Positions 8,553 through 23,936 of a stretch of 23,936 nt of DNA are shown here, one piece after another. The notes below the pieces were generated by a model. The model worked only from the letters and a program-made list of their open reading frames with translations. It made no database searches and had not been told where the DNA came from. This DNA is from a virus. Both the position numbers and the translations under genes were made by a program. Where the stretch lies: the IMG/VR virus record IMGVR_UViG_3300030012_001523, positions 23,996-47,931 of that record; one strand, written 5' to 3'. Numbering within the stretch: position 1 is the first letter of the stretch; each line of letters opens with the position of its first letter.

Positions 8553-10766
8553 CTATACTGCAGATACTGATAATGTACCTCCATTTGCTACTCTTATTCT
8601 ATACCTTGTTCCGTCAGGTGATTTTAATATTAAACCATTAGACGAAGTTTCTACTTCAACATCTCCTTGTTTAACGTCTAATCCGTCTGAGCTTAAGGTC
8701 GCGTAATTATTACTAGATGTATCTCTCCAATAATGAATAGCGGCGTTAGCATATATACCTTCATCTGTACCATTGCCTAGCCACATTTGAGGTTTACTTG
8801 TATCGTTATCTGCTGCTCTAATATTTAAATAATTACCACTACCATCAAATGAAGCTCTAGTATTATTAGTACTAAGCTTTAGTATTATTTTTGGAATATT
8901 TAAAAAGGATGCACTTACAGAGCTTAATTCTAAAAGCGTTCCGCTTGTACCTGTAGAAAATGTATATTTTTTACCAGATGTAATATTAAATCCTAAACCA
9001 CCTGTTTCAGTTTGACCAATACCTACATCATTAGCCACACCTCCTTGATCTTGAAATTTTACTCTATAAAAAGCATCTGTATCTACATCACCGTATATTG
9101 ATTTACCAAAACCTAAAGGAGCACTAGGACTAGTAGTTCCAATACCTACGTTACCTTCGTGAGTAAATCTAACTTTTTCTATTAAATCACCAGCAGCAAT
9201 GCCGTTACCAAAATCAAAAGTAATATCACCTGAGGTACTACCAGCTGTACTATCTAATACACCAAATATACCTCCAATTGAATATTCATTATAACCTCCA
9301 AACTGCATACCATATTTTTCATTTACAGCATTAGCAGTTCCATTTATAAACAATCCAGTTTTTGCATCTGTAGTAACATTTGTAATTCTTACTGGTTGGT
9401 TTGTGTTTCCTGGATCTCCTTTTATTGTGAGCTTTGATTCAGGACTAGCGGTTCCAATACCTACATTTTCAGACGAATCTAATGTAATGCCTCTATCAGC
9501 TAAAGTTCCTCCCCCTCCATTTTGTATTTGTAATTTATTATTTGAGTTATCTAAAAGAATTTGAGCATAGTTATCGTCAGCATTATCACCTAGCGCTAAT
9601 TGCGATAATCCAGAGCCTGGCCCCACAATTGCTATTACTGAATCACTAGAACCGTCACCAACCTGTAAATCTCTACCAGGGCTAGTAGTCCCAATACCTA
9701 CATTACCGCTAGAAGTAATACGCATAGCTTCATTAATAGCATTGTTATAAGTATGAAAAGTTAAATTACTTGCATTTGCTACTGCTCCTTCTCTGTTAGA
9801 TGCAATCATTGATTCTGCATTAAACATTGGATTAAATTTAATAGAAACTCCTTCACCTCCTCCTGAACCTATGTTTTCTAGATATACAAGATTAGCTGTT
9901 GCCGCATTGTCAGAAGACTGTATATGTAACTTATTAGTAGGATTACTTGTTCCAATACCTACATTACCGTTATCACGATTTAAAATTAAATTATTAGTTC
10001 CAGTTGGTACAACTATTTTAAGCATACCTGTAGGAGTAAACATTGCAAAGTCATTTTCAGTTCCCGTAACTCCGTGTATTGCTAAACCGTGATTACTAGC
10101 TTTATAAATTCTACCAGCTTTTCCGCTATCAAAAGTTATATTAGAAGTAAATCTTGCAGCACCAGCTATATCTAATTTATCTGTAGGACTACTTGTTCCA
10201 ATACCCACATTACCCGCGCTAGAAGATGTTAATAATACATTGGCTCCAGTAGTACCTAACTGTGATATACCACTAGAAATAAAACTACCTTCTACATGTA
10301 GTTTAGCTACAGGAGTAGTAGTGCCAATACCTACGTCACCGCCAGCAGTAACACGCATTCTTTCAGTATTACCAGTACCAAGTCTTAAAGCGTAAGCTTG
10401 TTGCACGAACATGAAGGCACCCGCATTATTATTAAGACCTAATTGTAGTCTCATAGTGCCGTTAAATATACCTACTACATTTGCTGCTCCTAATGTAGTT
10501 TTAACTTCTAAAATATTACTTGGAGTAGAAGTTCCAATACCTAATTTTTTATTAGTATTATCCCAATATAAATTATTATCTCCAGTTACTGTAGAAGCAG
10601 CGCTAAAAAAAGTTACTTGACCTGCGGCCCCAGTTCCTTGAGAGTAACCAGATAATAAGTCAACAGGATCTATTTGTATGTTTTGCGCGCCAGTATATCC
10701 TACTAAAAAATCTACTGTTCCTAGCGTTGTTTTTTGTGTAAATTGTGAAAACTTTATATTTGCCAT
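8553..10766 (-). CDS. Tail fibre-like protein built from VGIGT repeats (type A)
   Basis: A 737-residue Ser/Thr/Asn/Gly-rich protein. The N-terminus MANIKFSQFT, then DFLVGYTGAQNIQI, is shared with the next fibre gene and probably anchors both to the same virion part. Residues about 75-545 contain seven [VL]GIGT-x-x-P motifs (near residues 75, 145, 187, 269, 355, 437 and 540), each followed by a strand such as KLHIQS. Such repeats are common in phage fibres and Bacteroidota surface proteins and usually build trimeric beta-rich shafts. The C-terminus (NGLILKSPDGTRYRIRV, then LSVSAV) matches the end of the fibre gene at 21902. There is no visible chaperone (peptidase S74) domain. It ends with tandem TAG-TAA, the only TAG stop noted here, and starts by one-base overlap with the preceding gene. 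Confidence 0.75.
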   Translation of the reverse strand: MANIKFSQFTQKTTLGTVDFLVGYTGAQNIQIDPVDLLSGYSQGTGAAGQVTFFSAASTVTGDNNLYWDNTNKKLGIGTSTPSNILEVKTTLGAANVVGIFNGTMRLQLGLNNNAGAFMFVQQAYALRLGTGNTERMRVTAGGDVGIGTTTPVAKLHVEGSFISSGISQLGTTGANVLLTSSSAGNVGIGTSSPTDKLDIAGAARFTSNITFDSGKAGRIYKASNHGLAIHGVTGTENDFAMFTPTGMLKIVVPTGTNNLILNRDNGNVGIGTSNPTNKLHIQSSDNAATANLVYLENIGSGGGEGVSIKFNPMFNAESMIASNREGAVANASNLTFHTYNNAINEAMRITSSGNVGIGTTSPGRDLQVGDGSSDSVIAIVGPGSGLSQLALGDNADDNYAQILLDNSNNKLQIQNGGGGTLADRGITLDSSENVGIGTASPESKLTIKGDPGNTNQPVRITNVTTDAKTGLFINGTANAVNEKYGMQFGGYNEYSIGGIFGVLDSTAGSTSGDITFDFGNGIAAGDLIEKVRFTHEGNVGIGTTSPSAPLGFGKSIYGDVDTDAFYRVKFQDQGGVANDVGIGQTETGGLGFNITSGKKYTFSTGTSGTLLELSSVSASFLNIPKIILKLSTNNTRASFDGSGNYLNIRAADNDTSKPQMWLGNGTDEGIYANAAIHYWRDTSSNNYATLSSDGLDVKQGDVEVETSSNGLILKSPDGTRYRIRVANGGTLSVSAV
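9139..10544. repeat. Dispersed direct repeat encoding VGIGT motifs (7 copies)
   Basis: Plus-strand CCAATACCTAC or a near match occurs at 9139, 9454, 9691, 9952, 10199, 10324 and 10534, spaced about 125-315 bases. Three more copies lie in the fibre gene at the far end (23337, 23556 and 23805). The repeat is coding, but the near-identity of 11-16 bases gives many sites for slippage or recombination between fibre genes. Confidence 0.8.
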
Positions 10767-12883
10767 TAGTGTACTATTTTTAATAAATCTCCTGTTCTAT
10801 AAACATCTCCTGTTGTTAATCCTGCTGCAATAGCTGCTGTATTATCTGCGTATTCTGATACATTTGTGATGTTAAGATCACCATGTACTTTTGCGCCAGA
10901 AGAAGTTGCTTCTATTCTCAATACGTTGTTCGCGTAGATATAACTATTACCACCACTAAAGAATTTAGCTAGATTATTAGTACCTCCTGAACTTTTTAAT
11001 TGAACGAGGCTTGACAATATGCTTAAACTTCCTGTGCCACCATCTTTTATGATAGAATCACTACCATCGTGATATATTTCTAAATCATTATTAGAACCAA
11101 ACTCAGCTTTTACATTATCAGGTATATGTAAATTTTTAGAAAATTTATTTCTTACAATACTACCGTCTAAAGAAAAGTATGTAGTTACTCCACCACTACC
11201 ATCATCACAATTAAATACTATATCTTTATCGTCTGTTGTGTTTTGTATTACTAAATCACCTGTTCCATTATGCGATATTTCACTACCAGAACCGGAATGA
11301 ACTATTGATAAGTCTTGCGAGCTACCAAATTTTAAGTAAGAACTATCTGGAAATATTGTTATAGGATTAGTACCGCCGGCACTACCATCTAAAAAGAAAT
11401 AAGTTTCATTACCTCCACTTCCATCATCTGCTTGAAATATTATATCTTTATCATCAGCTTGATTTCTAATATAAAAATCGCCTGTGCCATTTGATAAGTA
11501 AGTATTAGTACCGTCGTGAAATTGTGCATAATCTCCACTATTACCCATACCTATATTCACATTATCAATTAAAGCTAAATCTTTAGTAAAAACAATTTTT
11601 TCACTACTACCATCTAATTGAAAATATGTAATTAAACCACCTGATCCATCATCACTTTTAAATATTATATCTTTATTGGCTGACTGGTTTTGAATTATTA
11701 AATGACCAGTAATATTATCTATATAATTATCACTACCATCGTGATATATTTGTAAATCACCAAGATCAGCTCCAAAACTTAAAGTACTATTATCAGGAAA
11801 TTTAGTAAATACTCTACCCCCACCTTGACCTGCTTTACTACCATCTAAAAAGAAATACGCAGTTGTTCCACCTGAACCATCGTCATTGTAAAAAGTAATA
11901 TCTTTGTCATTAGCATTTTGAAATATTTTTAAATTACCCGTATTGTTTTGTATAACAGAGTCTGTGCCATCGTGAAGAATCTTTAAATCACTACTAGTTC
12001 CAAATTTAGCTTGAATATTATCGAAAAACAACATACCATTTGGCGCATTTACTGTTAGTCTTTCATCACTTCCATCTAACCTTAAGTATTCTATAACAGC
12101 ACCACTACCGTTATCACATTTAAATACTATATCTTCATCATTAGCTTGATTTTGTAAAATTAAATCACCTGTTGTATTATCAATAACACTGTTAGTTGCA
12201 TTATGTTTTATAACTAAATCATTACTGTTACCGAATCTAAGTTCTACACTGTCTGATAACTTAACATTTTTAGAAAATAAAGTTATTTCATCGCCACCAT
12301 CAACTCTAAAATACTCAGTAAAACCACCACCTCCATCGTCACTTCTAAATATAATGTCTTTATTATCAGCTTTATTACTAATATATAAATCACCTGTAAG
12401 GTTATCAATAACAGAATCAGTGCCGCTGTGATATATTTGTAAATCAGCACCTGTGCCAAAACTTAATACGCTATTATCTGGAAACACAGTTCTAGGTGTT
12501 ACAGTTGTTAAAGAACCATCTAAGTAAAAATAAGTTGCTATACCACCAGCACCATCATCTGCTTGAAATATTACATCTTTATCAGCATCAGCATTCCTTA
12601 TAATTAAATTTCCTTCAAAGTTTCTTATTGAACTATCTGTACCATTATGGAATATTTCTAAATCTTGAGAATTTCCAGCTTTTAAAGCAAAATTATCAGG
12701 CATATGAATACCGCTGGTTCCAGTCATTGTACCACCAACAAGTGGTAAATAACCCGAAAGTGATGCTGCTAATAAATTAGTTGGAGATATTTGAATATTA
12801 TCACCTCCCTTGTAACCTACTACAAAGTCTATATCTGATTCTGTATTACCGACTGTAAATTGTGAGAATTTTATATTTGCCAT
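10766..12883 (-). CDS. Tail fibre-like protein built from DGSGG repeats (type B)
   Basis: A 705-residue protein with the shared N-terminal anchor MANIKFSQFT and DFVVGYKGGDNIQI. From residue 63 to about 635 it is made of seven full and one partial repeat of 73-77 residues: a DNxxLxFG turn, DLxIxHDGTDSxI, a TGDLxIxN strand, DKDIIFxxDDGSGG and YFxLDGS. The Asp/Gly/Asn-rich turns could bind calcium. Its end (SEYADNTAAIAAGLTTGDVY followed by RTGDLLKIVH) differs from the two other fibres and is of the 'A..aGlptGdlYrtg' type seen at many fibre C-termini. The repeat type is known to me from marine phage structural proteins; receptor binding is the likely role but is not shown. The stop overlaps the next start by one base (TAATG). 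Confidence 0.72.
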   Translation of the reverse strand: MANIKFSQFTVGNTESDIDFVVGYKGGDNIQISPTNLLAASLSGYLPLVGGTMTGTSGIHMPDNFALKAGNSQDLEIFHNGTDSSIRNFEGNLIIRNADADKDVIFQADDGAGGIATYFYLDGSLTTVTPRTVFPDNSVLSFGTGADLQIYHSGTDSVIDNLTGDLYISNKADNKDIIFRSDDGGGGFTEYFRVDGGDEITLFSKNVKLSDSVELRFGNSNDLVIKHNATNSVIDNTTGDLILQNQANDEDIVFKCDNGSGAVIEYLRLDGSDERLTVNAPNGMLFFDNIQAKFGTSSDLKILHDGTDSVIQNNTGNLKIFQNANDKDITFYNDDGSGGTTAYFFLDGSKAGQGGGRVFTKFPDNSTLSFGADLGDLQIYHDGSDNYIDNITGHLIIQNQSANKDIIFKSDDGSGGLITYFQLDGSSEKIVFTKDLALIDNVNIGMGNSGDYAQFHDGTNTYLSNGTGDFYIRNQADDKDIIFQADDGSGGNETYFFLDGSAGGTNPITIFPDSSYLKFGSSQDLSIVHSGSGSEISHNGTGDLVIQNTTDDKDIVFNCDDGSGGVTTYFSLDGSIVRNKFSKNLHIPDNVKAEFGSNNDLEIYHDGSDSIIKDGGTGSLSILSSLVQLKSSGGTNNLAKFFSGGNSYIYANNVLRIEATSSGAKVHGDLNITNVSEYADNTAAIAAGLTTGDVYRTGDLLKIVH
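10978..12697. repeat. Seven-and-a-half copies of a ~225-base coding repeat (type B)
   Basis: Each unit encodes the DLxIxHDG / TGDLxI / DKDIIFxxDDGSGG / YFxLDGS module. DNA similarity between units is still visible, for example CCATCATCTGCTTGAAATAT at 11427-11446 and again near 12552. Unit sequences have diverged, so the array is old but could still recombine with the homologous array at 22090-23125. Confidence 0.75.
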
Positions 12884-15165: not shown

Positions 15166-15582
15166 TTATTTGTGTTTGATATTGTTTTTTCTAGTAAATT
15201 CATCATGTAGATGTATAGCTGAAACTAAACCTTTGTTTAATCTTTTTTCTTGAGCTTTACTATGTTTTTTCATAGGAGTTTCCATTTGCATAGCGCTATG
15301 ATGACCTTTCATAGGTGAATCCATATGCTCACCTTTCATAGGTGAATCTATATGCTCACCTTTCATAGGTGAATCCATATGCTCATTTTTCATAGGTGAA
15401 CCATAGTTCATACCTGATTTATAATGTTTAGCTATCCATGGTCTATCTCCTGCAGCAGTTCTGGCTACTGGATTATCTTTTAGTAGGTCGCGTCTTTCTT
15501 GACTAGCGTATCCTTTATTTTGATTATGATAAGGGCTTTTATTATATAAAGCACCTGATTTTTTATCTGCTTGTCCTGGCAT
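15166..15582 (-). CDS. Small basic His/Met/Lys-rich protein with SPMKGEH repeats
   Basis: 138 residues, basic and low in hydrophobics. Residues 1-60 have KKSGALYNKSPYHNQNKGY and RRDLLKDNPVARTAAGDRPW. A central tandem repeat of nine residues (EHMDSPMKG, with EHIDSPMKG once) runs three times, flanked by degenerate copies (GSPMKN before, METPMKKHSK after). The C-terminus AQEKRLNKGLVSAIHLHDEF then TRKNNIKHK is helical and basic. It is probably disordered; it may bind DNA, RNA or another virion protein. Neighbours at 15604, 15903 and 16152 carry single copies of a similar S/T-P-x-K or SPF motif. Function unknown. Confidence 0.65.
   Translation of the reverse strand: MPGQADKKSGALYNKSPYHNQNKGYASQERRDLLKDNPVARTAAGDRPWIAKHYKSGMNYGSPMKNEHMDSPMKGEHIDSPMKGEHMDSPMKGHHSAMQMETPMKKHSKAQEKRLNKGLVSAIHLHDEFTRKNNIKHK
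15304..15384. repeat. Three copies of a 27-base tandem coding repeat
   Basis: Units at 15304-15330, 15331-15357 and 15358-15384. The first and third are identical and the second differs by one base (C to T), which changes Met to Ile in the protein. A degraded part-copy follows from 15385. The length is a multiple of three, so copy-number change keeps the frame. Confidence 0.9.
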
Positions 15583-16983: not shown

Positions 16984-17420
16984 CTTGTTTTGTCTTTGTT
17001 TAAATTATAAATTGCTTTTGTCATTACTTTATCCATATATGAAGTGCCAGTTATTATTTTATTTCTACTAGCAACATTTATGTCTTCATGACCAAGCATT
17101 ATTCTATATATGCGTTGAATTAATTGTTTACCTTTAAATGATATTTTATATATATTATATTTTTGTGTAGTTCTATTTCTATTACGCCATACAACTATCC
17201 AGTCATCTTGTATTAATTTATTCCATCTACGATTATTCCAGCTATACGCATATGTACCAGCTTTAAAATCTTTTATTGTAAATAAATCAATACAATCAAG
17301 GTATATTAATAATTCTAAATCACTATCGGTTAAATTGTTGTTTTTGCAAGCCCATTTGCGTATTACTCGATAGTGTTTCATTAAGTTTAAATCCTTAATA
17401 TCTTTTGCACTTAATCTCAT
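16980..17420 (-). CDS. Winged-helix-like basic protein following GroES
   Basis: 146 residues, very basic with many Arg/Trp/Tyr. Layout: helices LSAKDIKDLNLMKHYRVIRK and SDLELLIYLDCIDLFTIKDF, a WNNRRWNKLIQDDWIVVW helix-strand turn, then a RNRNRTTQKYNIYKISFKGK hairpin-like wing and a last helix QLIQRIYRIMLGHEDI. A helix-helix-helix-wing order fits winged helix DNA-binding proteins (MarR-like plan). Function could be transcription control or a packaging/DNA-recognition role. It starts with a 4-base overlap (ATGA) to groES, and the next gene overlaps its end the same way, so it is part of the chaperonin operon. Confidence 0.5.
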   Translation of the reverse strand: MRLSAKDIKDLNLMKHYRVIRKWACKNNNLTDSDLELLIYLDCIDLFTIKDFKAGTYAYSWNNRRWNKLIQDDWIVVWRNRNRTTQKYNIYKISFKGKQLIQRIYRIMLGHEDINVASRNKIITGTSYMDKVMTKAIYNLNKDKTR

Positions 17421-17677
17421 AAAACAACTACAATATCTTGAGCTTTAATTACACGATAAGATTTTTTATCAATTTCTATTTTATGACCAGCGTGACGATC
17501 AAAATATATTTTATCATCTTGTTTTAATCCTACAACTTCATTGCCTACTGAAACTATACTAGCTTCTACATATCTAATGTCTTCACGTTGGTTTTCTGCA
17601 AGAAGTAAACCACCTTTTGTTTTAGTAGTTCCTTCTTTTAATATATTTATGATTAAATTTTTACCTACTGCTTTCAT
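17417..17677 (-). CDS. groES: GroES co-chaperonin
   Basis: 86 residues (E. coli 97). It would form the heptameric lid that closes the GroEL folding chamber. The opening strand VGKNLIINIL, mobile loop about residues 14-28 (KEGTTKTKGGLLL, with LLL in place of the usual IVL), a VSVGNEVVGLKQDDKIYF barrel strand and closing RVIKAQDIVVVL follow the GroES order. It starts 17 bases inside the end of groEL, so it is translated downstream of groEL; bacteria normally have groES first. The 3' end overlaps the next gene as ATGA. The acidic mobile loop of cellular GroES is replaced by a Lys/Thr-rich one, suggesting adaptation to the phage GroEL. Confidence 0.93.
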   Translation of the reverse strand: MKAVGKNLIINILKEGTTKTKGGLLLAENQREDIRYVEASIVSVGNEVVGLKQDDKIYFDRHAGHKIEIDKKSYRVIKAQDIVVVL

Positions 17678-19205
17678 TAACTCTAATATTATTAATTACA
17701 CAATCAGTTGATAAAATTGTAGTAGCTACTGAAGCTGCATTTTGAAGAGCGCTTTTTGTAACTAATAGAGGATCAATTATACCACTATTAATCATATGTA
17801 CCATATTTCCTGTAACTACGTCAATACCTTCACCTTCTTTTTCTGGTGTCTGTGGTTTCATACCGGCATTGCTTAATATTGTTCTAAATGGAGATAATAT
17901 TGCTTTAGATAAAATTTTTTCACCAATGTTATCTTCTTCTATATTTAATGCTGCATTTAATAACGCAACACCACCACCTGGAACAATCCCTTCTTTTATA
18001 GCAGCTTTAGTAGCACATATAGCGTCTTCAACTCTGTCTTGTTTTTCTTTTAACTCAATATCAGAGTTAGCGCCTACTTTTACTATTGCTATTTTAGCAG
18101 CTAACATAGCTAGTCTTTTTTCTAACTTAACTACTTCGCTTGCTGTATTTTTTTTAGTTAATTTATTTTTAATTTCATGAATAACTTCTTTTACTTGATT
18201 AGAAGTTTCATTTACTTGTAATATAGTTTCATTTTCTGTAGTAATGCTTTTAACGCATTTACCAAGATATTCAATTTTAATTAAATCTAAATCATCGCCA
18301 AGATCTTCATTTATAATAGTAGCATCTGTTAATAAAGATAAATCATCTAGCAATTGTTTTCTATTAACACCATATGTTGGCGCGTCAATAACATTTACTT
18401 TTATATTACCTTTTATTTTATTCATGGCTAGAGCCGATAAAACACCTTTTTCTAAATCGCCTATAATAAGCAAAGGTTTATTGTTTTTTATAACGTACTC
18501 TAGCACTGTCTGAATTTGTCTTATTGAATCAACCTTAGACTCTATTAACAGCACTAGCGGATTATCTAACTCCGCTGATTGACTTTCAGCATTTGTAATA
18601 AAATGCCTATTTGTCAAACCTTTATCGTATTGAGCTCCTTCTACTATTTTTATTTCTGTCTTACCAACAGCAGATGGCTCCATCATTACTACACCTGTTA
18701 AATCTACTGCTCTAAACGCGTCAGCAATTAATTTACCTAGCTTGTGATCATTGTTTGTAGATATTGTAGCAATGTTATCAATCATATCTCCTTCAACTGA
18801 AACAGATATAGATTCTAAATATTTTATTACTTTGTCAACTGCAGAGTTTATACCTTCTTTTAATTCTCTAGAATTAGTTTTATTTACAACCGCATATGCT
18901 TCTTCTAATATAGCATGTGCTAATATGGTTGCAGTGGTAGTACCATCACCTGCTTGTTGTACTGTTTTACGCGCGGCTTCTTTTAAAAGTGTAGCGCCCA
19001 TGTTTTCTACTGGGTCTAACAAAATTACTGAATTTGCTACAGTTACACCGTCTTTTGTTATTACTGGATTACCAGCAGCATCTTCAAGTAAAACACACTT
19101 GCCGCTAGCTCCGAGTGTGGAGCTAACAGCTTGTGTAAGTTTTGTTATACCTTTAAATACTTCATCTCTAGCGTTATCGCCAAAGTTCAGATTTTTAACT
19201 ATCAT
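17661..19205 (-). CDS. groEL: GroEL chaperonin, phage-encoded
   Basis: A 514-residue chaperonin (E. coli 548) that folds proteins in an ATP-driven ring. All three domains are present: equatorial motifs KDGVTVA (51-57, Asp52) and GDGTTTA (86-92), apical region with VEGAQYDKGLTNRHFIT, and the second equatorial part with RVEDAICATKAAIKEGIVPG (catalytic Asp394) and GGGVALL. Departures: TLGP of cellular GroEL reads TLGASGK (30-36), PGFGDRRK reads APTYGVNRK, and the protein stops after CVINNIRVNESSR with no GGM-rich tail. The nucleotide-site residues I can check are intact. The leader is A/T only. It lies among virion genes, so it probably helps fold phage capsid or fibre proteins rather than replacing host GroEL generally. 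Confidence 0.96.
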   Translation of the reverse strand: MIVKNLNFGDNARDEVFKGITKLTQAVSSTLGASGKCVLLEDAAGNPVITKDGVTVANSVILLDPVENMGATLLKEAARKTVQQAGDGTTTATILAHAILEEAYAVVNKTNSRELKEGINSAVDKVIKYLESISVSVEGDMIDNIATISTNNDHKLGKLIADAFRAVDLTGVVMMEPSAVGKTEIKIVEGAQYDKGLTNRHFITNAESQSAELDNPLVLLIESKVDSIRQIQTVLEYVIKNNKPLLIIGDLEKGVLSALAMNKIKGNIKVNVIDAPTYGVNRKQLLDDLSLLTDATIINEDLGDDLDLIKIEYLGKCVKSITTENETILQVNETSNQVKEVIHEIKNKLTKKNTASEVVKLEKRLAMLAAKIAIVKVGANSDIELKEKQDRVEDAICATKAAIKEGIVPGGGVALLNAALNIEEDNIGEKILSKAILSPFRTILSNAGMKPQTPEKEGEGIDVVTGNMVHMINSGIIDPLLVTKSALQNAASVATTILSTDCVINNIRVNESSR

Positions 19206-19570: not shown

Positions 19571-19816
19571 TTAAATTCTTATTTGTAAAAATTCAGCATC
19601 TTTTAAACAGTTTATAATACCTCTTACTTGCTTATCATTATGAGTAAAACGAACTTCGCTTATAGAAACTTCACTAAAAGTAAGATTTTCTCCCGTAAGA
19701 GTTGATTCTAAAATAAATTGATTTTCGTCAGCTTCTTGTTGAGTAGCGTCTTCTAAACCATTTTGGCCTAAAATTTTCCAAACATTGCTTTGTGTTAATA
19801 CGTATTCTTTTGTCAT
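19571..19816 (-). CDS. Small protein of unknown function (81 residues)
   Basis: MTKEYVLTQSNVWKILGQNG, an acidic middle LEDATQQEADENQFILESTL, then strands NLTFSEVSISEVRFTHNDKQ and a final helix/strand RGIINCLKDAEFLQIRI. Predicted alpha/beta; no motif that I recognise. It starts by one-base overlap (TAATG) with the beta-helix protein stop, so it is probably translated together with it and may be its partner or chaperone, an inference from coupling only. Confidence 0.6.
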   Translation of the reverse strand: MTKEYVLTQSNVWKILGQNGLEDATQQEADENQFILESTLTGENLTFSEVSISEVRFTHNDKQVRGIINCLKDAEFLQIRI

Positions 19817-21549
19817 TATCCTAAGTTTATTAATGAAAATGTTGTGTTATCTAATGAGTTTCTAATTTTTCCAGCACCTGATACCGCTGCAAATCCATCA
19901 TTTGAATAGCAGTTATATAACAATCCTGTTGTTGCAGAAGTACCTGAGGTTCTTTTCCCAAAATTATTATTTCCTAAAGCAGTACAATTTATAAATCTTC
20001 CTGTAAAACTTCCACCACCACTAGATTTTGGAGTTCCAAACGATAATTGTGATTGAGATGTACAATTCATATAAACAGCTCCACTGTGATCACCTCCACT
20101 AGGTATTTCCCAACTATAAGCAGCTGAACCATATGAAACACAATTATGAAATTTACCTGAATTATTTAATGTTCTAGCAGCAAATCCTTGGTAGCCAACT
20201 AAAGTACAATGACTAAATTTAGCGTTACTTGTTATTGTTCCAGTTTCCATTCTACTAGCAAATGAGTAATAATCTCCTATACAATATAAACATTGTCCTG
20301 AAAATTCAGCTCCTTGGTATCCAAATTGATATTCTCCGTTTCTATAAGGCATATCATTACTTGTACCAGATATTGAATTATCGTATCCACATCTATAAAA
20401 AACTCCACTAGTGTTTCCACCGTCACCGCCGAAAGATTTATATCCCCAACATTCTATAAATGTTCCTGAGCATGAAGCGCCTGTTCCTCTACCAAAAGCT
20501 TCTGATGCGTAGCAGTTTTTATAAACTGAAGACGCAGTTCCAACACCTGTTCTTGGTTGAAAACTACCAGCTTGAAATCCATTACGAACATATATGTCTT
20601 CAAATGTTGTAACAGATAAATTAGAATCAACGTATATATTAGTTAAAATTTCAAAACCTTGAAATATAGAAGGAGTATTTGTATTATTAGCTAAAGATTT
20701 AACTTCTACATTACTTCCTTTTATAATAGTTGCGCATGTTCCTGCTAGAGAAATCATACTAACTATATCATTAATAATTAAATCAGAAGGAAGATCATAT
20801 ACTCCAGGTCCTACTATTAATGTAGAAGCTGTTTTTGATGATTGTAGCACAGCAATATTATTACCTAGCGCACTATAACCTTCAACTCTTCTACCATTTA
20901 ATGTAATTACAAAAGTCATTCTATTAGAAGAAGGAGATCCTACAGCTGTTATTTCAAAAGTATAATTTTGAACACCAGAAATACTATCAACTCCATCTAA
21001 AAAAACACTTCCTAAATCCATGCTAAAATTATATGGAGTATTAGTTACCGCTACGCCTCCTCCAATTCCCGAGCCAGATAAATATAATTCATATGTATTT
21101 TGAAAGTCTGTAATTGAAAATGATACACCAAAACTTTGAGCACTAGTTACTGTTTCTATTTTTTCAACTGCTTCTTCATAACCATCTAAAAGCGCTTGTC
21201 CGTTTTCAGCGTCTGTTCCATCTGCAGAAACATATACAGTATGATCATTTTCTATAAATTTACCTCCTTCAAGATATTTTATACTTGAAAAACTAAAAGC
21301 TCCTATACTTTTTGGATTAATATGTATTATTCTCGATGCTGGATTTGAAGTTATCGCACTATTGATAGCTTTTATTACATCTCCTGAATTACCAGCATTT
21401 ACAGTAAATTTTATTTGAGAATTATTATTTAATTCTAAAAAAAATACAGATGAAGAAAGTGGCCTAATGTATTTTACACTAGTCCAATTAATTACTAAGT
21501 CACTGGTTAATCCTAAACCACTTGCGTTTTTAAATACTAAAAATTTCAT
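19816..21549 (-). CDS. Tailspike-like beta-helix protein with small N-terminal domain
   Basis: 577 residues. Residues 1-95 (MKFLVFKNASGLGLTSDLVI to SIGAFSFSSIKYLEGG) resemble the free-standing small beta-domain proteins at 14485, 14809 and 21562. Residues about 95-240 form a beta-rich linker (YVSADGTDAENG onward). From about 250 the text is a right-handed parallel beta-helix: at least nine rungs carry a Cys or aromatic stack of the form F-x-N-C (YKNCYASEAFG, FIECWGYKSFG, FSHCTLVGYQG, FHNCVSYGS, YMNCTSQSQ, FINCTALGNNNFG, LYNCYSNDG). This fold is used by phage spikes that bind or cut surface polysaccharide; no catalytic residues can be assigned. The Cys ladder may stabilise the helix in a reducing assembly cytoplasm. 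Confidence 0.75.
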   Translation of the reverse strand: MKFLVFKNASGLGLTSDLVINWTSVKYIRPLSSSVFFLELNNNSQIKFTVNAGNSGDVIKAINSAITSNPASRIIHINPKSIGAFSFSSIKYLEGGKFIENDHTVYVSADGTDAENGQALLDGYEEAVEKIETVTSAQSFGVSFSITDFQNTYELYLSGSGIGGGVAVTNTPYNFSMDLGSVFLDGVDSISGVQNYTFEITAVGSPSSNRMTFVITLNGRRVEGYSALGNNIAVLQSSKTASTLIVGPGVYDLPSDLIINDIVSMISLAGTCATIIKGSNVEVKSLANNTNTPSIFQGFEILTNIYVDSNLSVTTFEDIYVRNGFQAGSFQPRTGVGTASSVYKNCYASEAFGRGTGASCSGTFIECWGYKSFGGDGGNTSGVFYRCGYDNSISGTSNDMPYRNGEYQFGYQGAEFSGQCLYCIGDYYSFASRMETGTITSNAKFSHCTLVGYQGFAARTLNNSGKFHNCVSYGSAAYSWEIPSGGDHSGAVYMNCTSQSQLSFGTPKSSGGGSFTGRFINCTALGNNNFGKRTSGTSATTGLLYNCYSNDGFAAVSGAGKIRNSLDNTTFSLINLG

Positions 21550-21561
21550 TTTCTAATTTTT

Positions 21562-21846
21562 TTAATTGTATGAAACAGCTGATATAGATACACCTGAAGG
21601 CATTGTTACTACAGAGTTTCCATAATTAGAGTTCAATATTGTTTTATTTATAGCATTACCCATTTGTCCATTAGCAGCAGAGCTATGTGTTAATTCAATT
21701 CTTCCAAAACTTGAATTTGAAACGTAAACTATTGTTTTAGTTGCACTAGCTTGTTCTACTGTAATTATATCTTCAAAATCAACTACTACTTTTTTGTCTT
21801 CAGTTGAAGCTGTTGCTCCTGAAAATGGTATTGTTAATGTATTCAT
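21562..21846 (-). CDS. Small beta-domain protein (94 residues), family member 3
   Basis: MNTLTIPFSGATASTEDKKV, VDFEDIITVEQASATKTIVY and VSNSSFGRIELTHSSAANGQ, then a short helix MGNAINKTILNSNYGNSVVT and closing strands MPSGVSISAVSYN. Opening MNT-L-I-P and end SISAVSYN parallel the 99-residue protein at 14485 (MNTILKIKLP and FDSISYNG). It lies immediately upstream of the beta-helix protein whose first domain has the same plan, so it may be a related virion-surface or spike-accessory domain. The leader of 55 bases (21847-21901) is A/T-rich with no other feature seen. Confidence 0.65.
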   Translation of the reverse strand: MNTLTIPFSGATASTEDKKVVVDFEDIITVEQASATKTIVYVSNSSFGRIELTHSSAANGQMGNAINKTILNSNYGNSVVTMPSGVSISAVSYN

Positions 21847-21901: not shown

Positions 21902-23936
21902 TTACGCTACAACTAAGTTTCCAGAGTTATCTATGCTTATTTTTCTAGTAGTATTGCCATCTGGAGACACTAAAGTAATACCATCGCCAGGTCCTGGTAA
22001 CTTAACACCACTAGATATAGTTTCTAATTTTGAAACATTCAAGTAATAAAGTTTTACTCCTTGCGCATTAAACCTACTCATTATATTCGCGCCGCTTTGC
22101 ATCCAAATATCATCTACAGCTTTTATATATAAATCTCCAGTTCCAGTTTCATCAATATAAGAATCACTCCCATCGTGATATATTCTTAAATCTGTTCCTG
22201 CGCCAAATTGAGCTTGAACATTATCTTCAAATCTCATATTTTTAGAAACTACATTTTGCTCTGTACTACCATCTAATCTAAAGTATTCCGTTGTACTACC
22301 TGAACCATTATCAGATTCAAAAGTTATATCAGCGTCATCTGCGTTTTGTATAATTCTTAAATTACCTGTGTAGTTTTGTATAAAAGCATTACCTGAACTA
22401 TTTTGATGGAATATTTCCAGATCAATACCATCACCAAATTTTAATTTAACATCATCTGAAAATATTGTTGGTTTACTATATACAACGTGTTCATTACCAC
22501 CATCTAGTCTGAAGTATTGAGCTGTTCCACCAGAACCATCGTCTGACCTAAATATTATATCTCCATCATTTTGGTCTTGCTGAATAGTCAAATCACCTGT
22601 TGAATTTTGTATTACACCACCTGTGCCTGTATGAAATAATCTTAGTTCTCCACTAGAACCAAATTGTGCTGAAACACTGTCTAAGAATCTAGCTTCTTTT
22701 GTAAAAATAGTTTGCACATTACCACCATCTAATCTAAAATATTCTGTTGCAGTTCCACTTCCATTGTCAGCATAGAATGACATATCACCATCTGCTAGAT
22801 TTTGTATAATTCTAAAATCGTGATTAAGACTGCTTATTTTATTTAAACTACCATCGTGTACAATTCTTAAATCAAGACTATTACCAAAATTTAATTGAGA
22901 ATCATCTGGAAATATTGTTTGTGGTGAACTAAAACCACCATCAATTCTAAAGTATTGAGTTAAACCACCAGAACCATCATCACATTGGAAAACAATATCA
23001 CTATCATCAGCTCTTTGTTGTATTGTAAGATTGCCTGTGTAATTTTCTATTTTACTTGTACTGCCAATTTCGTGAAAAATTCTTAAATCATCAGCATCAC
23101 CAAAAGTTATTTTTTTATCATCAGGAATGTTAACTGTATTATCATTACCATCAAGAATCATCATTTCAACACCGTCGTTTGGCATTAACTTTAATTGTGT
23201 GCCTACATTTAATAATCTTGAATATGCTGTATTATCTTTTATTCTTATTTCAGCAATAGAATCAGTTGATTCAAGCTCTGCTACTAAATTATCAGTTCCT
23301 GCATTTACTTGTAGTTTAGCAGCAGGACTACTAGTTCCAATACCTAAGTTACCATTAGTATCTAATCTCATTTTTTCAGAGCCATCAACTTCAAATCTAA
23401 TTCTAGAATTACCAAACTGATTTCCTGTGTCGGCTGATAATATCATATTACCGTCTACATTTTCTATCTTATTTTTATTAGGATTCGTTGTATCCTCCAT
23501 TATAAAGACAGGATTTGCATCTGCTATGTGTAGTCTCGATTCCGGATTGCTAGTTCCTATACCTACATCGCCAGTGGTTCCTTCTATCCTCATCAACTCA
23601 TTAGCAGCTGCATCACCCATAAAAACAAAATTATTTGTCTTCTTTAAACCAATAGTAAAATCTATGTCGTTTCCAGATGTTCCTTTATTTGAAAAATTTA
23701 ATCTAGATGAAAAATTAGCGCCTGCATTTGTATTGCCTTCTATCGTTATTGCTGAGTTAGTACTACTTTTTTTAACATGTAAATTGTAACCAGGACTAGT
23801 GGTACCAATACCTAATCTTTTATTTGGATCGTCCCAATATAAGTCAGTGTCACCTGTAATAGAGTTTATACCGTTCCAGAAACTAACTTGACCAACAGCG
23901 CCTGCGCCTTGTACAAATGTTTGATCTATCTTATCC
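21902..23936 (-). CDS. Tail fibre-like protein, A+B hybrid, N-terminus beyond window end
   Basis: The frame is open to 23936, giving about 677 residues, and the start is cut off. The first ATG inside the window (23620) is internal. The N-terminal visible part carries three [VL]GIGT-x-x-P motifs (type A); AVGQVSFWNG, then GDTDLYWDDPNKRLGIGT, lines up with AAGQVTFFSA, GDNNLYWDNTNKKLGIGT in the 8553 gene, which places the true start about 100 bases past the window. From about 23125 it switches to four full and one partial type B repeats (DLRIxHDG, TGDLxIQ, DDGSGG, YFRLDGG), as in the 10766 gene. The end GDGITLVSPDGNTTRKISID then NSGNLVVA matches that of the 8553 gene. So one fibre joins both repeat types under the type A cap. 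Probable receptor-binding role. Confidence 0.75.
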   Translation of the reverse strand, partial: DKIDQTFVQGAGAVGQVSFWNGINSITGDTDLYWDDPNKRLGIGTTSPGYNLHVKKSSTNSAITIEGNTNAGANFSSRLNFSNKGTSGNDIDFTIGLKKTNNFVFMGDAAANELMRIEGTTGDVGIGTSNPESRLHIADANPVFIMEDTTNPNKNKIENVDGNMILSADTGNQFGNSRIRFEVDGSEKMRLDTNGNLGIGTSSPAAKLQVNAGTDNLVAELESTDSIAEIRIKDNTAYSRLLNVGTQLKLMPNDGVEMMILDGNDNTVNIPDDKKITFGDADDLRIFHEIGSTSKIENYTGNLTIQQRADDSDIVFQCDDGSGGLTQYFRIDGGFSSPQTIFPDDSQLNFGNSLDLRIVHDGSLNKISSLNHDFRIIQNLADGDMSFYADNGSGTATEYFRLDGGNVQTIFTKEARFLDSVSAQFGSSGELRLFHTGTGGVIQNSTGDLTIQQDQNDGDIIFRSDDGSGGTAQYFRLDGGNEHVVYSKPTIFSDDVKLKFGDGIDLEIFHQNSSGNAFIQNYTGNLRIIQNADDADITFESDNGSGSTTEYFRLDGSTEQNVVSKNMRFEDNVQAQFGAGTDLRIYHDGSDSYIDETGTGDLYIKAVDDIWMQSGANIMSRFNAQGVKLYYLNVSKLETISSGVKLPGPGDGITLVSPDGNTTRKISIDNSGNLVVA
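22090..23125. repeat. Four-and-a-half type B coding repeats in the hybrid fibre
   Basis: Units of about 215-230 bases encode the FG / DLRIxHDG / TGxLxI / DDGSGG / YFRLDGG module. They are homologous in protein to the array at 10978-12697 but clearly diverged, with more Gln and Arg (YFRLDGG against YFxLDGS). The switch from type A to type B occurs near 23125. Confidence 0.75.

Follow-up and report, generated by a model that had tools for sequence, protein, structure and literature searches.

Tail fibres of an uncultured phage and its relatives are modular, with a conserved N-terminal anchor followed by a body and a C-terminus that vary among relatives, and the single units of their shafts (here called beads), as well as bodies and caps, seem to have been exchanged between related phages and across two fibre slots. 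The window, i.e., the whole stretch of 23,936 nucleotides analyzed here, corresponds to positions 23,996-47,931 of a 47,931-bp virus record (IMGVR_UViG_3300030012_001523) and thus reaches the end of that record. It contains a fibre gene with only A repeats, another with only B repeats, and a hybrid that carries A and then B repeats.

The terminase encoded in the window shares 62% identity with a phage record from the environment; its identity to those of the elemo-group Flavobacterium phages is about 43%, and further matches were found in Cellulophaga, Tenacibaculum, and Maribacter phages. The phage is related to the Flavobacterium and Cellulophaga podoviruses, and the source is probably an uncultured phage of marine flavobacteria. 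Scans that used GroEL, terminase, and fibre sequences as queries yielded some 240 sibling loci (designated by L numbers); the hybrid alone, used as a query, yielded only one distant relative. The window also carries adjacent, phage-encoded groES and groEL genes (17417-19205, minus strand), whose position is kept in the siblings, and a small gene containing a 27-bp tandem repeat in about four copies (15297-15405; SPMKGEHMD repeats).

All three fibre genes lie on the minus strand as open frames, with portal, terminase, and holin genes as neighbours. Pfam gave no usable domain for any of them, and the C-terminal Peptidase_S74 domain (PF13884), found by Pfam in sibling fibre genes of L020 and L182, was absent from all three. 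The A-only gene and the hybrid match the PHROG tail-fibre families phrog_9942 and phrog_18345, and the B-only gene and the hybrid match phrog_13518. These matches, together with the structural and lysis gene setting, identify the three products as putative tail fibres, although the window fibres match the profiles (phrog_9942, phrog_18345, phrog_13518, and phrog_8745) only in part and these families mix many architectures.

The A-only gene (8553..10766, minus strand) encodes a 737-aa protein in which a MANIKFS anchor (roughly residues 1-40) precedes seven A units and a SPDG-type cap. A motifs, defined as G[IVL]G[TN]xxP, were located at residues 76, 146, 188, 270, 357, 436, and 541, and a scan of this protein for the B motif found none. 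The B-only gene (10766..12883, minus strand) encodes a 705-aa protein that combines the MANIKFS anchor with B units of about 75 aa and a YRTGD-type cap; it has seven B motifs plus seven D[DN]GxG sites, and the A motif was not found in it. Shuffled proteins contained on average at most 0.013 A and at most 0.11 B motifs each, the real counts being far above chance. The motif positions thus bear out the trio (A-only, B-only, and A-then-B) that had been described in an earlier note on this DNA. The anchor that the note attributed to both the 8553 and the 10766 proteins was confirmed as well, since both N-termini read MANIKFSQFT and share 60% identity over residues 1-41/1-45. No hydrophobic run is visible by eye in these N-termini, and a consensus-like MANIKFS anchor found no match in named phages.

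The hybrid gene (21902..23935, minus strand) is cut at its 5' end by the end of the contig, leaving 677 aa visible. A motifs are found at residues 42, 125, and 198 and B motifs at residues 283, 355, 430, 505, and 582. Residues 1-40 (DKIDQTFVQGAGAVGQVSFWNG...; 23816..23935) are common to MAIIY-anchored fibres, the hybrid's own anchor not being visible. They are followed by A unit 1 (residues 41-123; 23567..23815), A unit 2 (residues 124-196; 23348..23566), for which a close relative was not found, and the A-to-B junction unit (residues 197-282; 23090..23347). Then come four full B units (residues 283-581; 22193..23089) and a last B-like unit with the cap (residues 582-677; 21905..22192), the latter common to L011, L013, L015, L019, and L222.

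The junction unit of the hybrid shares 75% protein identity with that of L011 (86% at the nucleotide level over 218 nt), and over its last 168 nt the gene matches the end of the L011 fibre gene at 93% identity. Because the A-to-B junction and the cap are both shared with this sibling, the layout of the hybrid was inherited and not made from its two neighbours; the A-then-B order is also present in the siblings L011 and L019. The cap had been called A-type in the earlier note, and this holds only in the sense of a loose family (33% identity over the last 46 residues with the end of the A gene, E 7e-6), whereas at the nucleotide level the cap is that of the L011 lineage itself. It is very unlikely that the hybrid arose within this genome by recombination of the neighbouring A-only and B-only genes. 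All three genes do lie in one genome and have motif families in common, and the hybrid aligns to the A gene (33%) and to the B gene (44-45%), but any two genes of this kind show a background similarity of this order. Moreover, the best relatives of the hybrid units are found in other phages, the junction and the cap are those of L011, the terminal context of the hybrid is that of the MAIIY genes described below, and a block search found no DNA block shared among the three window genes.

A chimera assembled from reads of different fibre genes would be another way to obtain such a hybrid. The hybrid is indeed cut by the contig end, and such genes also contain the ends of several sibling contigs, but the junction unit and the cap recur in L011, which is a contig of another IMG/VR dataset, the shared units differ from their partners by several percent instead of being identical, and the frame is open throughout, making an artefact hardly credible.

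The ends of the record were tested as a circle, and neither an overlap nor a continuation of the fibre frame was found; the other end opens in a ribonucleotide-reductase-like gene on the plus strand. The codons of the hybrid at the contig end read DKIDQTFVQGAGAVGQVSFWNG, and a degenerate DNA scan detected the terminal peptide DKIDQTFV in four other viral contigs. The peptide is located at residue 376 of the MAIIY gene of L011 and at residue 191 of that of L019, another of the contigs (L171/L255) also holds a MAIIY gene, and in L013, where the start is cut off, at least 190 residues precede it. Apart from that of L013, these genes start with MAIIY[ST]YP. A relationship between the MAIIY and MANIKFS anchors was not supported by profile-profile comparison (probability 0.2%). 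In view of the DKIDQTFV context and of the unmatched anchor profiles, the MANIKFSQFT-like start that the earlier note had expected about 100 bases further on is unlikely. The siblings point to the outcome that the note had named as contrary to its own reading, namely that the gene begins far upstream and that its N-terminus is unrelated, a placement that is deduced from relatives and not read directly. From these siblings, we assign the hybrid to the MAIIY lineage. Its location argues against this assignment: the sibling MAIIY genes adjoin g19231, but the hybrid is found upstream of g21562. In L011, L019, L020, and L171, a MARIIAY gene of about 150 aa comes before the MAIIY gene. The order in L020 is g21562, a g19816-like gene, the MARIIAY gene, the MAIIY gene, and g19231; compared with L020, the window shows a local change of gene order involving 21562-21846 and 21902-23935.

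The siblings define two fibre slots. MAIIY anchors lie upstream of g19231/groEL in all 30 cases in which groEL is present, and MANIKFS anchors lie between groEL and terL in 43 of 48 cases. The five exceptions are divergent phages (groEL about 57-60% identical) whose MANIKFS gene is upstream of groEL, and thus, the anchors are not strictly tied to the slots. The combinations of anchor, body, and cap differ among siblings for both anchors; MANIKFS, for example, was seen with A+SPDG, A+S74, B+YRTG, and A+YRTG ends, the S74 domain being confirmed by Pfam. In the close siblings L011 (15962-21545), L013 (8825-13922), and L019 (11565-16941), the slot of the A and B fibres of the window is occupied by three other large genes, which start with MATPSVL, MKP[GS]LLMLPSAV, and MLKDYFEVPNKP; this is a replacement of the whole set. 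A 577-aa protein encoded in the window (19816-21549, minus strand) has its first 96 residues or so conserved with L009:4655-5977 and L020:3574-4815, the rest being unrelated, and a scan with this protein as query returned no relatives. It shows another anchor with a swapped body, and is possibly a tailspike.

Exchange is seen down to the level of the single unit. Hybrid unit 1 has as its partner the first unit of a MANIKFS-anchored gene in L197, at 89% identity in protein and about 87% in DNA (295 nt), compared with 65-84% for the core genes; the DNA identity is high within the unit and drops near the VGIGT words. A B unit of L022 and one in the L038 gene located upstream of groEL share 98% identity (237 nt), the core genes being 77-90% identical. 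Between L020 and L022, every core gene compared except one shows 96-99% identity, yet one unit is shared between the MAIIY gene of L020 and the MANIKFS gene of L022 at about 93% nucleotide identity (91% for a 323-nt block), and directly beyond the unit the identity is 30-50%. Within the window, one unit of the A gene (residues 268-355) matches a unit in the A gene of L174 at 90% identity and another (residues 434-539) has 78% identity to L173, and 152 nt of one unit of the B gene are 93% identical to L178. These comparisons show single beads moving from phage to phage and from one fibre gene to another. We give very little credence to the alternative that there is no exchange, in which the A and B repeats would have duplicated long ago and diverged where they stand, with transfer being mimicked by chance conservation. 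Such an origin would fit the units that have no match of at least 60% in the set (107 of 159 A units and 47 of 110 B units), but it does not explain single units with 87-98% DNA identity in different genes with unrelated flanks, in phages with core-gene identities of 65-90%.

For none of the 269 units analyzed (159 A and 110 B) did the best match, at a threshold of 60%, lie in the unit's own genome. DNA blocks were shared by 1 of 14 gene pairs within genomes and by 87 of 1,312 pairs (6.6%) between genomes; as the within-genome sample is small (14 pairs), this is an absence of enrichment rather than avoidance. Modular exchange within one genome, as the earlier note had put it, is therefore upheld in that modules do move, at the DNA level and among sibling phages, but not in its location, as no unit had its best match in its own genome and the block search found nothing shared among the three window genes. 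For the internal ends of A blocks (n=32), 66% fell within 36 nt of a VGIGT start versus 19% for random placement, a difference that is partly expected from the conservation of VGIGT and comes from blocks that are not all independent.

The A units resemble solved structures. In phmmer searches they matched the Bdellovibrio MAT fibres Bd2133 (8OND) and Bd1334 (8OML), and also 8OJN, with E 3.7e-10 to 8OND; the B units found no relative among solved structures. MAT proteins consist of trimeric beta-helix segments bounded by capping loops that bear the word V-G-G/N-aromatic-x-x-P-x-x-x-L, and they carry chimeric C-termini on a common shaft (PMC10769870). The phage A units are alike in sequence and have a similar capping-loop word, and the phage fibres likewise vary at the C-terminus. 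However, MATs are proteins that bacteria secrete, and they carry a signal peptide followed by a beta-rich domain of about 130 aa, whereas the phage fibres start with MANIKFS or MAIIY, and no MAT counterpart of the B units was found. The window fibres are not classed as MATs. AlphaFold models were all-beta, at low confidence (mean pLDDT 47 and 55). By homology, each A unit may be a trimeric beta-helix segment, and the shared VGIGT word would keep exchanged beads in register.

We consider it probable, taking the reading as a whole, that these are anchor-bead-cap fibres, that the hybrid is of the MAIIY lineage, and that beads are exchanged between phages, usually with edges near VGIGT. A short N-terminal anchor would dock each fibre on the virion, followed by a shaft in which beads of type A and/or B are stacked, and by the C-terminal cap. 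The VGIGTxxPxxxL word would be the capping loop of a MAT-like A bead and would in most cases mark where an exchanged piece ends, allowing an incoming bead to fit in register. The most likely route would be homologous recombination at conserved words in co-infected cells, and the likely use a changing set of host-surface adhesins, receptor binding being presumed. A wider proposal, with a common bead pool in which VGIGT is both structural joint and crossover site and beads are swapped across lineages and the two loci for standing adhesin diversification, is put forward tentatively, as we find it possible but doubtful.

Mosaic adhesins are a kind of system already known in phages. Among phage receptor-binding proteins, tail fibres that otherwise differ have been described as having shared fragments recently (Smug et al., 2023; PMC10684548), and there, as here, N-terminal anchors are conserved and bodies and C-termini are variable. 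In contrast with that mosaicism, the exchanged piece here can be a single shaft bead, and the pieces cross two fibre loci with different anchors. The interest lies in this unusually fine grain and in the crossing between two loci: adhesin mosaicism in uncultured marine phages can reach single shaft beads, and differently anchored loci use the same beads. The bead finding also makes the structural joint testable as a crossover site; a literature search found no relevant paper naming the VGIGT word. The A+B combination is not unique, since gp39 of Roseobacter phage CRP-227 and gp39 of Pelagibacter phage HTVC168P, both isolated marine phages, have A and B motifs in one protein like the hybrid, but these have only two A motifs and one B motif each, low identity, and alphaproteobacterial hosts.

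Bead shuffling would also account for the frequent contig breaks in fibre genes. Contigs that end inside a fibre gene upstream of groEL include the window (at 23936), L013, L021, L022, and L171, as if assemblies broke at the shuffled fibre gene.
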